Assembly: GCF_017545445.1 (NCBI RefSeq)
Contig: NZ_JAFWOM010000004.1
Span: forward strand, 1 to 33,059
DNA length: 33,059 nt
Direction: 5' to 3'
Source: Fibrobacter sp.
Lineage (GTDB): Bacteria; Fibrobacterota; Fibrobacteria; Fibrobacterales; Fibrobacteraceae
Numbering within the stretch: the first letter of the stretch is position 1; the number at the start of each line of letters is the position of its first letter. Below the pieces are notes generated by a model that worked only from the letters and a program-made list of their open reading frames with translations, ran no database searches and had not been told where the DNA came from. A program made the translations under genes and the position numbers. Positions 1,653-25,387 of the stretch are shown piece by piece.

Positions 1653-1730
1653 CCGCAATATCTTGCAGATTTTCATTGACAAACCGTTTTAAATTATATA
1701 TTTTGAAGCAAAAACCGCAATATCTTGCGG
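1653..1730 (+). promoter_or_regulatory. hipBST promoter flanked by two operator-like repeats
   Basis: TTGACA (1676-1681) lies 17 bp before TATTTT (1699-1704). On each side is a copy of the same imperfect palindrome: CCGCAATATCTTGCAG at 1653-1668 and CCGCAATATCTTGCGG at 1715-1730, 62 bp apart. The second copy lies over the expected transcription start. HipB proteins autorepress their operons by binding paired inverted repeats, so these are the likely HipB operators. The promoter and repeats are seen; HipB binding is inferred. Confidence 0.65.
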
Positions 1731-1781
1731 AATTTTACAACAAACAAAAATGGACTAATGGGTATATTCGGAGCATCGCGT

Positions 1782-1988
1782 ATGGAAAATCTCGGAAAAC
1801 AGATTTCGGAAAGGCGAAAAAAACTGGGACTCTCCCAAGAGGACTTGGCCGAGATTTCCGGTGTTTCGCCCAGAACAATCAACTCCGTCGAACTCGGGAA
1901 AGCGAACCCGTCCATCAACGTTTTGAACAAGATAGTGAAGCCCCTCGGTTTTGTGGTCTCATTAAGCGAGAGGGTAACGCATGAATAA
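1782..1988 (+). CDS. hipB: HipB-like XRE-family antitoxin/repressor
   Basis: Starting at the ATG at 1782, which begins MENLGKQISERRKKLGLS, this 68-residue protein is almost entirely a Cro/C1-type helix-turn-helix: QEDLAEISGVSPRTINSVEL then GKANPSINVLNKI. An upstream in-frame start at 1725 would add 19 unrelated residues and overlap the operator region, so the shorter form is preferred. It overlaps the next gene by 8 nt. In hip systems HipB binds operator DNA and represses the operon, usually together with the other components. The hipB-hipS-hipT order matches the tripartite HipBST class known from enteropathogenic E. coli. Confidence 0.85.
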   Translation: MENLGKQISERRKKLGLSQEDLAEISGVSPRTINSVELGKANPSINVLNKIVKPLGFVVSLSERVTHE

Positions 1989-2313
1989 CAAAATCCGCAG
2001 CGCATGCGTTTATTATAACGATATTCTTGCCGGATATCTTCTGCAAAACAGCAAAGGCTACACATTTTTTTACGACTCCAATTACGCGACATCCCGAAAC
2101 CCATCCATCGCATTGGACATGCCCAAAAAGAAGCGGCTGTTCCGCTCGCCTTATTTGTTCCCGTATTTTCAAGGGCTACTCCCGGAAGGGGCTAACAAAA
2201 CTTTCTATTGCGAACGTATCGGCATTAAGCGCACAGACAAATTTGCAATGCTCTTGAATCTCGCTAATCACGAAACTATCGGTGCGGTTACCGTACGTAA
2301 AAGGAGTCGCTGA
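1981..2313 (+). CDS. hipS: HipS-like protein (HipA N-terminal subdomain as separate polypeptide)
   Basis: A 110-residue protein corresponding to the N-terminal subdomain of HipA kinases (couple_hipA type): VYYNDILAGYLLQ, then FRSPYLFPYFQGLLPEGANK, ending NHETIGAVTV. In HipBST systems this domain is encoded separately and HipS neutralises the kinase HipT, unlike classical HipAB where HipB does so. Its start overlaps hipB by 8 nt and its stop overlaps the hipT start (TGATG, 2311-2315), so the three genes are one translationally coupled operon. The split is clean: each half keeps a ribosome binding site (AAGGAG at 2301-2306 for hipT), arguing for a natural tripartite system, not a broken hipA. 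Confidence 0.85.
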   Translation: MNNKIRSACVYYNDILAGYLLQNSKGYTFFYDSNYATSRNPSIALDMPKKKRLFRSPYLFPYFQGLLPEGANKTFYCERIGIKRTDKFAMLLNLANHETIGAVTVRKRSR

Positions 2314-3314
2314 TGGGTCTTTGCCGCTGTTGCTTAAAAGAATCGGAACAAGATTTTTGCCGAGCCTGCTCGAAGGCTTTGTTCGGCGTTTCCAGATTCA
2401 ACGCCACGTTAGATTTTGACGTTCCGCAACTTGCATTTGCGAAGGATGGAACAGTCAAGAGAATTTCCATTTCCGGGGCACAGACAAAGTTTTCCGTGAA
2501 AGTCGAAAACAAGAAACTGGTCAATACAGACCGTGGCGGCACACACATTCTCAAACCGACATTGCTACCGTACTACGAGAACTACCAAGACGCACCCGCC
2601 AACGAACATGTAACTATGCTGATGGCACGCATCCTTTTCAAGATTCCGACAGCGTTATCAGCTTTAATGAACTTCAAAAATGGCGACCCCGTCTATATCA
2701 CCAAACGATTCGATGTCATTGAAACCGGTGAGCATGCTGGAGAACGTTTGAGTCAAAGCGACTTCGCACAAATTGCAGGCCTTATTCCCGAAATAAACGG
2801 TAGCGACTACAAGTACAAAGGTATTTCATACGAGGGAATCGCCTCATTGATTCGCGAGAACGTGAGTGCCGCCGATGTCGCCGTTGAAGTGTTTTTCAGG
2901 ATAGTCCTATTCAATTATCTCGTATGTAACGGCGACGCTCATGCAAAGAATTTTTCGCTACACAATTCCGTTGAAAATCCCGATGTCTATAATTTGACTC
3001 CTGCATACGACTTGTTGAACACGTCGCTCCATATTCCATTTGAACAATCGCGTACAGCACTAGATTTATTCAAGGACGAAGACGATTTCAAGACCCCTTT
3101 TTATGAGGCTAACGGTTTTTACGGCACTCCAGATTTCATGGAATTTGCCAAAAGAATCGGAGTTGTCGAGAAAAGAGCCGCACGCTTCATAAAACAAGCC
3201 ATCGAAGCCGTGCCCGCGATGGAAGAAATGCTAGACAAGTCCTTTTTGAGCGAACAAGGCAAATTAAAATACAAAGAATCTATTCGAGATAGAGCGAAAG
3301 CGCTAGGGCTGTAG
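2313..3314 (+). CDS. hipT: HipT-like serine/threonine kinase toxin
   Basis: A 333-residue HipA-type kinase core. A cysteine-rich start (C4, C6, C7, C16, C19) looks like a small zinc-binding knob. Next comes ISISGAQTKFS (51-61), the Ser-Ile-Ser loop where E. coli HipT is autophosphorylated; here the serines are S52 and S54. GGTHILKP gives the probable ATP-binding lysine K81. The catalytic loop NGDAHAKN has D208, and AYDLLNTS has the metal-binding D233. All key residues are present, so it should be active. HipT of E. coli O127 phosphorylates tryptophanyl-tRNA synthetase, and HipA phosphorylates GltX; the target here cannot be told. Remnant DUF1016 sequence begins within 10 bp of its stop. Confidence 0.88.
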   Translation: MGLCRCCLKESEQDFCRACSKALFGVSRFNATLDFDVPQLAFAKDGTVKRISISGAQTKFSVKVENKKLVNTDRGGTHILKPTLLPYYENYQDAPANEHVTMLMARILFKIPTALSALMNFKNGDPVYITKRFDVIETGEHAGERLSQSDFAQIAGLIPEINGSDYKYKGISYEGIASLIRENVSAADVAVEVFFRIVLFNYLVCNGDAHAKNFSLHNSVENPDVYNLTPAYDLLNTSLHIPFEQSRTALDLFKDEDDFKTPFYEANGFYGTPDFMEFAKRIGVVEKRAARFIKQAIEAVPAMEEMLDKSFLSEQGKLKYKESIRDRAKALGL

Positions 3315-3321
3315 AGAATTA

Positions 3322-3477
3322 TCTGACCTATTCAAATTTGACAATCAGTGATTGTCAAATCTCAGACACCCTATTTTTACGAGACCTAAACTTTAGTGAA
3401 ATTGACTTTGCCTAAGGATGCAAATATCTACGCCTCCGTTTATGAGTTGTATCTGCCGGACAAGAAACTTTTGCAAG
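3322..3477 (+). pseudogene. Internally deleted DUF1016/YhcG remnant
   Basis: Two pieces match the full DUF1016 gene at 3651-4700. Positions 3322-3373 match 3935-3986, covering LTYSNLT, the palindrome and QISDT. Positions 3391-3477 match 4573-4659 almost base for base and encode LTLPKDANIYASVYELYL then PDKKLLQ. About 587 bp of the gene, including the nuclease core, are missing between them, replaced by 17 unmatched bases, and the two pieces are in different frames. The fragment starts 14 bp before its palindrome, right after hipT. It is a direct-repeat partner of the downstream gene, suggesting duplication followed by deletion. Confidence 0.85.
3336..3360. repeat. Palindrome in the DUF1016 remnant (copy 2)
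   Basis: ATTTGACAATCA (3336-3347) and TGATTGTCAAAT (3349-3360) are perfect 12-bp arms around a single G. The outer 8 bp on each side equal those of copy 3 (3949-3973). The inner part differs by paired changes that preserve the palindrome. Confidence 0.9.
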
Positions 3478-3511
3478 AAGCGATGGGTTATGTAAAATTT
3501 TATTAAATACC

Positions 3512-3622: not shown

Positions 3623-3637
3623 TCCGCAATATGCGGA
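3623..3637. promoter_or_regulatory. Operator-like palindrome resembling the hip operators
   Basis: TCCGCA-ATA-TGCGGA is a 15-bp palindrome 13 bp before the start of the DUF1016 gene. It shares CCGCAATAT and GCGG with the two repeats around the hipB promoter (1653-1668, 1715-1730), lacking their central CT and one T. It may be a HipB-type binding site linking the two systems. Confidence 0.4.
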
Positions 3638-3650
3638 AAATGGAGGCTGT

Positions 3651-4700
3651 ATGGTTAAAAATAAAGAGAACATCCCTGCAAAAATGGTGGAGTCGCTGTT
3701 CAATAAGGTTGCGAACTTGATTGAACAAGCCCGAGCCCGTGTGGCTACAGCAATGAACGTTGCCGAAGTTTACACGAAGTACCAAATTGGGCGATACATT
3801 GTGGAAGAAGAACAATCCGGGAAAAAACGCGCGGAATATGGAAAACAGGTTCTTGAAGGCTTGTCGGAACGCCTCACGGCTCATTATGGGGATGGATGGT
3901 CTTACTCGAACTTGAGACAGATACGGCAATTTTTTCTGACCTATTCAAATTTGACAGACACTGTCTGTCAAATCTCGGACACCCCAAATTTCACATTAAG
4001 CTGGAGCCATTATCAGGTGCTCATGCGCATCAAGAATGATGAAGAACGCCGCTTTTACGAAATAGAGGCCACATCCGGGAACTGGTCCGTTCGTGAATTG
4101 CAGCGGCAGTATGGTTCAAGCTTGTACGAGCGTCTTGCGTTAAGCCAGGACAAGGAAAAAGTTGCTCGTCTGTCACAGGTTGGCAATGTGGTCGAAAAGC
4201 CCGAAGACATCATTAACAATCCGGTGACACTGGAATTTGTGGGTTTGAAGCCAGACGCGTCGTATTCAGAAACAAGTCTGGAAACCGCCATTATCAATAA
4301 GCTGCAAGAATTTTTGCTTGAATTGGGAAAAGGCTTTTTGTTTGAATCTCGTCAAAAAAGGTTTTCTTTTGACGAAGACAACTACTATGTGGATTTGGTT
4401 TTGTACAATCGACTGTTGCAGTGTTATGTGCTTGTTGACTTGAAGGTTGACAAGTTGACTCATCAGGATCTCGGGCAAATGCAGATGTACGTTAACTACT
4501 ATGATCGCTATGTAAAGCAAGATTTCGAGAAGCCAACCATTGGCATTTTGCTCTGCAAAGAAAAGAAAGATGCCTTAGTAAAACTGACTTTGCCTAAGGA
4601 TGCAAATATCTACGCCTCCGTTTATGAGTTGTATCTGCCGGACAAGAAGCTTTTGCAAGCAAAGGTCAAAGAATGGATTAACGAATTTGAGAATAAGTGA
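3651..4700 (+). CDS. DUF1016/YhcG-family PD-(D/E)xK nuclease, full length
   Basis: A 349-residue protein with both family domains. The DUF1016_N helical domain (about 10-165) holds IGRYIVEEEQSG, then WSYSNLRQIRQFF and LSWSHYQVLMRIK. The PD-(D/E)xK domain (about 190-345) holds YYVDLVLYNRLLQCYVLVDLK, whose D and DLK form the nuclease core, then DLGQMQMYVNYYD. GGAGG at 3642-3646 is a good ribosome binding site. Between the two N-terminal motifs, the linker codons form a perfect palindrome (3949-3973). The C-terminal 87 bp are duplicated in the remnant upstream. The gene ends 66 bp before recQ. YhcG proteins are predicted nucleases often linked with restriction and defence islands; substrate and role here are unknown. 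Expression may be attenuated by the leader hairpins. Confidence 0.92.
   Translation: MVKNKENIPAKMVESLFNKVANLIEQARARVATAMNVAEVYTKYQIGRYIVEEEQSGKKRAEYGKQVLEGLSERLTAHYGDGWSYSNLRQIRQFFLTYSNLTDTVCQISDTPNFTLSWSHYQVLMRIKNDEERRFYEIEATSGNWSVRELQRQYGSSLYERLALSQDKEKVARLSQVGNVVEKPEDIINNPVTLEFVGLKPDASYSETSLETAIINKLQEFLLELGKGFLFESRQKRFSFDEDNYYVDLVLYNRLLQCYVLVDLKVDKLTHQDLGQMQMYVNYYDRYVKQDFEKPTIGILLCKEKKDALVKLTLPKDANIYASVYELYLPDKKLLQAKVKEWINEFENK
3949..3973. repeat. Palindrome inside the DUF1016 coding sequence (copy 3)
   Basis: ATTTGACAGACA (3949-3960) and TGTCTGTCAAAT (3962-3973) are perfect 12-bp arms around a single C. It encodes the linker NLTDTVCQI between the RQIRQFF and WSHY motifs. Ten bases of its right arm recur in the loop region of the leader hairpin at 3558-3567. 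Confidence 0.92.
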
Positions 4701-10942: not shown

Positions 10943-11215
10943 ATGGCTGAAACAAAAACTGAAACGAAACCGGCTGCTAAAAAAGCCCCTACAAAGAAAC
11001 CGACTGCTAAAAAGCCGCCTAGCAAAAAGAAGCCAGTTGCCGCTGCTAAGAAGCCTGCCGCTAAAAAGCCAGCTCCAGCTAAGAAGCCCGCTGCCGCTAA
11101 GAAGCCCGCTGCCGCTAAGAAGCCCGCTGCCGCTAAGAAGCCTGCCGCTGCTAAGAAGCCCGCTGCTGCTAAGAAGCCTGCCGCTGCTAAAAAGCCGGCT
11201 GCTGCTAAGAAGTAA
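10943..11215 (+). CDS. Histone H1-like Lys/Ala/Pro-rich DNA-binding protein
   Basis: A 90-residue highly basic protein, MAETKTETKPAAKK followed by Thr/Pro/Lys-rich sequence and seven PAAAKK repeats at the end. It resembles the C-terminal tail of eukaryotic histone H1 and the bacterial HC2/AlgP-like group, which bind DNA by charge and help compact the nucleoid. No folded domain is visible. It has its own promoter and strong flanking terminators, so it is monocistronic. The 18-bp coding repeats make its length liable to change between strains. Confidence 0.85.
   Translation: MAETKTETKPAAKKAPTKKPTAKKPPSKKKPVAAAKKPAAKKPAPAKKPAAAKKPAAAKKPAAAKKPAAAKKPAAAKKPAAAKKPAAAKK
11087..11212 (+). repeat. Tandem 18-bp coding repeats (PAAAKK x7)
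   Basis: Seven copies of an 18-bp unit such as CCCGCTGCCGCTAAGAAG, differing at third codon positions, fill the last 126 bp of the H1-like gene before its stop. Confidence 0.9.
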
Positions 11216-24253: not shown

Positions 24254-25387
24254 ATGAATCGCAAGAAAAATAATTCAGAAGCAGAAACATCTCGCATCGT
24301 TCAATCGCACGACATCCACCTCGACAACGAATACGTCACATGGATTGCGGAACTGAAAGACCGTTACCGGTCCGCACAGACCAAGGCCGCAGTCAAGGTA
24401 AATGCAGAAAAGCTCATGTTCAACTGGCAGCTTGGTCGTGATTTGGTACAGAAAAAAGCCGAAGAACGCTGGGGCAGCGGAGTTGTAGAACAAGTCAGCC
24501 TTGATTTAAAAAAGGCTTTTCCAAACGCCGACGGATTTTCTACAGCAAATCTTTGGTTTATGAAAAAATGGTATCTATTTTATACCCAAAAAAGCTCCTC
24601 AGAAAAACTCTACCAAGCTGGTAGAGAATTTCCCCAGCAATTTGCATTCGTCCCTTGGCGTCACCATGTAGAAATCATTTCCAAATGCAAATCGGTCGAA
24701 GAAGCCCTATTCTACATCGGCAAAGTCATAGAACAAGGAATGAGCCGCGATGCCCTCATAAACTGCATAAAGGCAAACCTTTTTAAACATCAGGGCAAGA
24801 TTAAGAATAATTTCACATGCAATTTGCCAGCGTCGCAAAGCTCTCTAGTTCAAGAGGTTCTAAAAGAAAATTACGATTTCGGCTTTGCTACAGTAAGTCA
24901 CGAAATTTATGACGAAAACGAACTTGAAAATGCCCTTACAGAAAATGTGACAAACCTTCTTCTTGAAATGGGCACGGGATTCGCATTTGTCGGTCGCCAA
25001 AAAGAAATCCTTGTAGGTGGACACTCTCGCAAAATCGACCTGCTGTTTTATCACATCCGTTTGCGTTGTTATATTGCATGCGAACTGAAAGCAAAACCTT
25101 TTGAACCAGAATTTGTCGGCAAGCTTAATTTCTACGTGAATGCAGTTGACAATCTATTGAAAAGTTCAGATGACAATCCAACGATTGGACTTTTGATTTG
25201 CTCCGATATGAACAGCACTGATGTACAATGGTCATTTCAAGGCTTTGGCACACCATTGGGCATCGCCACTTACAACAACATCCGAATCAAGGACGCACTA
25301 CCCTCCAAAAAACAACTCGAAGACCGAATGCAGCTCTTGCAAAAAGAAATACAACAGACCAAACGACTGATGAGCAAAAATAAGTGA
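24254..25387 (+). CDS. DUF1016/YhcG-family PD-(D/E)xK nuclease, second subtype
   Basis: A 377-residue full-length DUF1016 protein. The N-domain (about 20-185) has NWQLGRDLVQKKAEERWGSG, FSTANLWFMKKWYLFY and the subtype-specific FVPWRHHVEIISKCKS. The nuclease domain (about 215-360) has RKIDLLFYHIRLRCYIACELK, with D and ELK as core, and VGKLNFYVNAVD. It ends in a coiled basic tail. It is only distantly similar to the copy at 3651. It stands alone; the leader holds a bulged hairpin (GCAAA/TTTGC plus GAGC/GCTC, 24182-24210). A palindrome sits in the linker before PWRHH (24608-24626). Terminated at 25400-25426. Confidence 0.92.
   Translation: MNRKKNNSEAETSRIVQSHDIHLDNEYVTWIAELKDRYRSAQTKAAVKVNAEKLMFNWQLGRDLVQKKAEERWGSGVVEQVSLDLKKAFPNADGFSTANLWFMKKWYLFYTQKSSSEKLYQAGREFPQQFAFVPWRHHVEIISKCKSVEEALFYIGKVIEQGMSRDALINCIKANLFKHQGKIKNNFTCNLPASQSSLVQEVLKENYDFGFATVSHEIYDENELENALTENVTNLLLEMGTGFAFVGRQKEILVGGHSRKIDLLFYHIRLRCYIACELKAKPFEPEFVGKLNFYVNAVDNLLKSSDDNPTIGLLICSDMNSTDVQWSFQGFGTPLGIATYNNIRIKDALPSKKQLEDRMQLLQKEIQQTKRLMSKNK
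24608..24626. repeat. Palindrome inside the DUF1016 coding sequence (copy 4)
   Basis: CTCTACCA (24608-24615) and TGGTAGAG (24619-24626) are perfect 8-bp arms around AGC. It encodes LYQAGRE in the linker between WYLFYTQ and PWRHH, the same place as copies 1-3, with unrelated sequence. Arms are shorter than in the other copies. Confidence 0.75.

Follow-up and report, generated by a model that had tools for sequence, protein, structure and literature searches.

YhcG proteins were predicted in 2005 to be PD-(D/E)XK nucleases, with an N domain that could not be matched confidently to any known structure, as stated in the accessible part of the study by Kosinski (PMC1189080). Palindromes that reside within genes are known from the Rickettsia palindromic elements, which are described in the accessible part of PMC4316617 as selfish elements of ∼100 to 150 nt that occur in RNAs and coding sequences as well as in intergenic regions. 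Here, we analyzed a window of 33,059 nucleotides from Fibrobacter sp. (contig NZ_JAFWOM010000004.1, positions 1 to 33,059), where DUF1016/YhcG genes carry, within the coding sequence, a palindrome in the linker between two predicted helix-turn-helix (HTH) motifs. Across the family, this palindrome has a fixed place and a symmetric structure, and its sequence covaries with the protein according to a code of residues and bases. Since the palindrome matches the residues with which the protein is predicted to read DNA, each DUF1016/YhcG protein very probably binds the palindrome in its own gene. A full-text literature search, with subscription papers mostly outside its scope, returned neither a palindrome nor a specificity code for YhcG/DUF1016, and the accessible parts of PMC4316617, PMC1189080, PMC7383237, PMC12704722, and PMC7022226 contain no account of the palindrome.

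The intact gene at 3651 to 4700 (on the forward strand, like the other DUF1016 copies and the codons of the window given below) encodes a protein of 349 amino acids (aa) composed of a DUF1016_N domain (aa 20 to 161; Pfam, 2.5e-38) and a YhcG_C PD-(D/E)XK nuclease domain (aa 186 to 338; 6.3e-49), with E224, D248, D263, and K265 as the predicted active site. Its linker contains the self-palindrome ATTTGACAGACA-C-TGTCTGTCAAAT at 3949 to 3973, with exact 12-bp arms around 1 nt; in the 27-bp form (3948 to 3974), the end pair is the one mismatch. A second intact gene assigned by Pfam (24254 to 25387, 377 aa) has a degenerate self-palindrome around 24617 (24604 to 24630), with perfect 8-bp arms and a 3-nt center at 24608 to 24626, nested in a longer repeat with 14-bp arms that are 86% complementary. 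Both Pfam domains (PF17761 and PF06250) were above the curated cutoff in these two genes and the PDC-S02 models matched as well, so that YhcG, COG4804, and PDC-S02 denote the same family; NCBIfam assigned no family to the two whole proteins.

Two further copies are incomplete. An open reading frame (ORF) at 156 to 923, identified from the ORF list and Pfam, is truncated in 5': it starts at the palindrome AATTGTGCAGAC-acc-GTCTGCACAATT (161 to 187, exact 12-bp arms around 3 nt), lacks the part upstream of it, and keeps the nuclease domain, being above the cutoff for PF06250 only. A remnant at 3326 to 3490 (approximate edges, delimited by similarity to 3940 to 3985 and 4576 to 4660) consists of a piece around the linker fused to a DUF1016 3' end, the latter found also in a search for unpaired DUF1016 gene halves. 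Its palindrome, ATTTGACAATCA-G-TGATTGTCAAAT (3336 to 3360, exact 12-bp arms around 1 nt), has the same outer arms as that at 3949 to 3973 and inner arms altered on both sides. The palindromes at 161 to 187 and 3949 to 3973 share a core, AGAC..GTCT, which is read in different frames, pointing to conservation of the DNA rather than of the peptide. The preliminary description of this DNA had located these repeats and their arms exactly, including the perfect 8-bp arms at 24608 to 24626, and had attributed them to four DUF1016 copies; the palindromes stand, but only two of the copies are whole genes.

To cover the family, we took the best-scoring loci, at 30 loci per genome search. The genome of the window gave 10 matches, a set of 60 relatives and one of 167 phylum genomes each contributed their best 30 loci, together with 60 further stretches, and the best 80 of 582 DUF1016 loci were taken from GTDB genomes; IMG/VR, annotated plasmids (14 regions), and E. 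coli K-12 were also included. After removal of duplicates and of ORFs lacking the linker or the N part, 139 of 154 ORFs were used in a first test and 269 of 280 genes in an enlarged one. Perfect arms of at least 9 bp were found in the linkers of 75 of the 139 genes, compared to a mean of 0.83 in synonymous-codon shuffles (maximum of 3 in 100 shuffles) and to 7/1025 windows of the same length elsewhere in those genes. The enlarged set gave 157/269 genes versus a shuffle mean of 1.7 (maximum of 4 in 20 shuffles), with 23/2200 for the other windows. Arms of at least 12 bp were present in 113/269 linkers (0.05 in shuffles) and near-palindromes, defined by a score of 8 or more, in 226/269 (5.95 in shuffles; 38/2200 same-length windows elsewhere in the genes). 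The linker palindromes are thus real and far beyond chance. The preliminary description had derived this conclusion from a chance of about 4 to the power −12 per arm pair, an estimate that is too naive, but the conclusion itself is upheld by proper controls, including the synonymous-codon shuffles that it had named as the comparison to make. Within 1.22 Mb of loci chosen for DUF1016 genes, 80 of the 88 strong palindromes located in ORFs fell in DUF1016 ORFs, the others being two in ORF6N genes, one in a Bro-N gene, and five in other ORFs.

A total of 270 odd-length palindromes were found in 230 of the 269 genes. The typical element has 27 bp (13+1+13), AATT ends, and a variable middle, and its half-site reads, from the center outward, A/G, C/A, seven variable positions, T/A, T/A, A, A. 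The center is a single base, C or G in 237/270 palindromes, and it occupies all three codon phases (234, 32, and 4 cases). Diversity is high: the 123 half-site cores that are intact over 9 nt comprise 83 distinct sequences. In 21/139 genes, the linker contains two or three palindromes, which often share their inner core, and no rule designating the first or the most symmetric one as the current palindrome emerged across these genes.

We then compared the half-sites with the proteins in 188 of the 230 palindrome genes, near-duplicates sharing a site being removed (residues are numbered as in the 3651 gene). Half-site positions 5 to 8 were tracked by residues 86, 89, and 90, at the start of the predicted HTH1 recognition helix (residues 85 to 103; codons 84 to 94, SYSNLRQIRQF, 3900 to 3932), positions 3 and 4 by residues 119 and 122 (codons 119 to 122, SHYQ, 4005 to 4016), and positions 1 to 3 by residues 147 and 148 of the predicted HTH2 recognition helix (codons 147 to 155, 4089 to 4115). 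Expressed as raw counts of sequences, which are not independent events and for which leave-clade-out accuracies are noisy, the associations for residue 86 were R86-G7 in 52/53 and K86-C7 in 13/15; for residue 89, E89-C8 in 24/24, W89-T8 in 19/20, Y89-T8 in 8/8, and K89-G8 in 36/44; for residue 90, N90-A5 in 29/29, Q90-A5 in 18/18, and R90-C5 in 32/40; and for HTH2, V147-A3 in 57/64, R147-C3 in 29/31, and R148-C2 in 120/121. These pairings resemble the amino acid-base contacts of DNA-binding proteins. R-G and Q-A contacts are also reported for ParB/Noc in the accessible part of the source.

The signal was recovered at several evolutionary distances. Permutation of the half-sites within clades placed 86, 90, 89, 147, 119, 148, and 151 at the head of 313 columns by summed excess. 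Residues 90, 86, 89, and 87 were the four best of 301 columns at predicting half-site similarity between proteins 45 to 70% identical, and for pairs 15 to 45% identical, residue 86 ranked first and residue 90 fourth of 311 columns, with 321 and 174 between them. Ranked among 60 foreign palindromes by a predictor from which relatives above 60% identity were left out, the own palindrome reached a mean percentile of 0.926 and the top 5% in 139/188 genes; the mean was 0.919 when relatives above 45% identity were left out. As controls, the best columns gave 0.71 when taken from the nuclease domain and 0.75 when taken from the remainder of the N region, and 12 random column sets gave a mean of 0.50 (highest, 0.61). 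Twelve of 18 new genes outside the training set could be scored and gave a mean percentile of 0.949, with 8 in the top 5%; of the others, three had no match to the helix regular expression and three no palindrome in the scanned stretch, HTH2 having been taken as the helix in two of the latter.

Between proteins 70 to 97% identical, those with different palindromes showed an excess of differences at the linker edges, mostly in the 13 columns before the linker (ratio, 2.34), with ratios of 0.64 to 1.24 in all other segments (197 different-palindrome and 143 same-palindrome pairs, mean identities of 0.76 and 0.82, rates normalized within each group). For instance, the gene of locus L014 and one of locus L168 are 97% identical, and their differences are nearly confined to that segment and the linker. 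The earlier suggestion of a self-recognition site that diversifies between copies therefore gains support on both counts: half-site bases covary with residues of the predicted recognition helices in the same protein, the cores are diverse, and a change of palindrome between near-identical proteins goes chiefly with changes in the adjacent helix. Both window genes fit the proposed code. The 3651 gene has S86, R89, and Q90 alongside A7 (found in 5/23 cases for S), G8, A5, and C6, and the 24254 gene, whose predicted recognition helix (STANLWFMKKW) lies at 24539 to 24571, has the equivalents of A86, W89, and F90, together with R147, alongside C7, T8, A5, and C3.

The yhcG gene of E. coli K-12 carries three linker palindromes. 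By blastn, the third one had matches in 3526/5426 E. coli genomes, at a median of 2 places per genome (highest, 4), and we attribute the usual two to a single palindrome being matched on both strands; all 25 rows among the matches listed fell in yhcG or its truncated form. Two alleles exist at this locus: AATTCGCCAGACA accompanies K86/R89/Q90, and AATTGTGCAGACA accompanies R86/W89/Q90, the K-12 copy of this allelic palindrome having one mismatch, and the first palindrome fits the code in both alleles. Broken yhcG copies were also seen in some E. coli strains (loci L301, L302, L305, L308, and L310); the breaks consist of a transposase remnant bordering the third palindrome, an IS1 with its edge inside that palindrome, and a deletion across palindromes 2 and 3.

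The simplest cause of the code would be that the protein binds its own palindrome. We propose that a dimer binds the site within its own gene, which is probably an autoregulatory operator inherited together with its reader. The predicted arrangement of the dimer over the palindrome is two-fold symmetric, and in it the inner bases 1 to 4 of each half would be read by HTH2 (147 and 148, with 119 and 122) and bases 5 to 8 by HTH1 (86, 89, and 90), while the near-constant outer AATT would be bound through some shared mode of contact. The site lies in the linker between the two predicted HTHs; since this linker tolerates very different peptides, the palindrome could change its sequence and even its reading frame, and since the site adjoins the codons of its reader, the pair could pass to descendants or be swapped as a single cassette. 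The bound protein may then block transcription from inside the gene, which would hold nuclease levels low at each new location of the mobile gene. We tentatively put forward such autorepression as the main use of self-binding, because of the operator geometry and of the AATTGCGTC-type palindromes found upstream of cassette genes.

In related genomes, and with distances counted on the printed sequence, AATTGCGTC-type palindromes lie in a conserved block, 48 bp upstream of ORF6N genes (L211 and L232), 61 bp upstream of a Schlafen/AlbA_2 gene (L233), and ∼127 bp upstream of a DUF1016 gene (L210). The block, of ∼150 to 200 bp with a DUF1016-type palindrome, precedes the start codons of differing genes (L210, L211, L214, L217, L218, L220, L222, L224, L228 to L230, and L232 to L234; near position 1501 of the locus, except 703 in L218, 105 in L222, and 955 in L233), and may be something like a shared promoter of mobile cassettes. 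A matching operator was not found upstream of each DUF1016 gene, the upstream palindromes being mostly of another type. In the window, reading of the sequence revealed a short palindrome, TCCGCAATATGCGGA (3623 to 3637), 13 bp upstream of the 3651 start codon, in place of which several relatives carry GGTCGCAAATTGCGACC, which resembles the ORF6N-type palindrome. It is a candidate second operator, possibly for cross-regulation.

The main alternative to repression is a nuclease address, by which binding to the own site would mark rival or incoming gene copies for cleavage or gene conversion, with immunity-like allele groups and cassettes swapped by repair. The predicted catalytic residues (E224, D248, D/E263, and K265) are intact in 233/241 aligned genes, PADLOC lists the family as the candidate defense system PDC-S02, and neighbors include a methyltransferase and helicase, BrxL, and integrases; moreover, in the window and some E. 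coli strains, the ends of broken copies fall at the palindrome or within it. Against this, the own site would need to be spared, and coresident genes showed no clear depletion of similar sites: among pairs 20 to 50% identical, at least 6 of the 7 variable positions were shared by 1/122 pairs within a genome and 84/6409 between genomes (3/133 within genomes overall). Unpaired gene halves were few (3/305 N parts and 10/313 C parts), too few for the breakpoints of broken DUF1016 genes to be placed at the palindrome. We regard this possibility as rather unlikely.

That the palindromes were left in a tolerant linker by a mobile element or by template-switch repair, the protein having no role, seems very improbable to us. 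The linkers with several palindromes, K-12 yhcG included, would agree with it, and Rickettsia palindromic elements enter coding sequences without disruption, according to the accessible part of PMC4316617. However, within the scanned loci, which were chosen for DUF1016 genes, the palindromes are concentrated in DUF1016 ORFs, and their sequence is predictable from residues outside the linker. A dispersed element was rejected on this concentration and on the single occurrence of the palindrome at 3949 to 3973 in its genome. We give no more credit to mere linkage, in which helix and palindrome would be coinherited by recombination and the site left unread: the strongest segment does adjoin the linker and differences form tracts, but the signal persists between proteins 15 to 45% identical, reappears at 147/148, ∼87 nt past the linker, with columns 123 to 146 absent from the top 20, and follows amino acid-base pairs typical of DNA-binding proteins. 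Finally, an mRNA hairpin controlling translation or decay, for which the preliminary description had left room by writing of a DNA or RNA element, was rejected as scarcely credible although RNA folding is supported for the window palindrome (z, −2.95), because G.T mismatches (88) do not exceed A.C mismatches (105) and 216/270 palindromes keep complementarity at the pair beside the 1-nt center, a pair impossible in an RNA hairpin, the covariation with recognition-helix residues also arguing for DNA.

Another mobile family has comparable palindromes. ORF6N genes (L342 to L371, also L211, L229, and L232) contain, within the coding sequence, a sequence-variable palindrome of the TTGAGGTCGCAATTTGCGACCTCAA type just upstream of their FTEQG motif; a score of 8 or more was reached in 27/27 distinct genes (from 32 ORF matches, best 30 loci of the phylum) versus 0.4 in shuffles, which suggests a wider class of self-palindrome genes. 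A strong palindrome, CAAACCGTGACAATTTGTCACGGTTTG, also lies within the coding sequence of a Bro-N gene (L202 4004). It is conceivable, although we would not expect it, that at least two unrelated mobile DNA-binding families (DUF1016/YhcG, ORF6N, and perhaps Bro-N) carry their own cognate site in frame, reader and site thereby spreading and diversifying as a single cassette, and that the DUF1016 address tells the nuclease which copies are kin, as a gene-level self/non-self system with a readable amino acid-to-base code.

Elsewhere in the window, a toxin-antitoxin-like cluster at 1725 to 3314 consists of an HTH regulator and, after it, split HipA-like genes (Couple_hipA and HipA_C); the 5'-truncated ORF lies on one side of it and the DUF1016 remnant on the other. 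A small ORF with many Lys-Pro-Ala repeats (10943 to 11215) resembles a histone-H1-like protein.

If the proposed binding holds, a family of unknown function, present in E. coli K-12 and many phyla, gains a concrete biochemistry, each gene stating the sequence that its protein should bind. The covariation amounts to a specificity code that was derived purely from sequences and is of use in target prediction and programmable DNA binding, and coding DNA would be seen to carry a second message at a fixed place, largely independent of the reading frame.

Among known systems, ParB-parS and Noc-NBS come to mind, as the AlphaFold-predicted DUF1016 N domain resembles ParB/Noc, with a Z score that is not decisive. 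DUF1016 proteins differ by their PD-(D/E)XK nuclease domain and the absence of a Pfam ParB domain, and the Pfam domains of both whole proteins are limited to DUF1016_N and YhcG_C, with no ParB N-terminal CTPase domain; a PDB sequence search gave no match with a single protein and five weak matches with a profile (E of 0.05 or more), none of them credible and none to ParB/Noc. Unlike the sites of ParB/Noc, the DUF1016 site has 27 bp, is hypervariable, and lies inside each gene. Rickettsia palindromic elements share with it palindromes that leave the coding frame unbroken (accessible part of PMC4316617). In contrast to those elements, the DUF1016 palindromes have 27 bp, follow the protein in their sequence, and reside mostly at a single place in a single gene family. 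Autoregulators whose operators are intragenic are similar in having an operator-like palindrome for the gene's own product, and we know of no counterpart to a family-wide, diversifying operator located between two reading helices. Homing endonucleases likewise link a nuclease gene to a specific target that is bound up with that gene; in homing, the target is interrupted by the gene, whereas the DUF1016 palindrome is intact within the gene.
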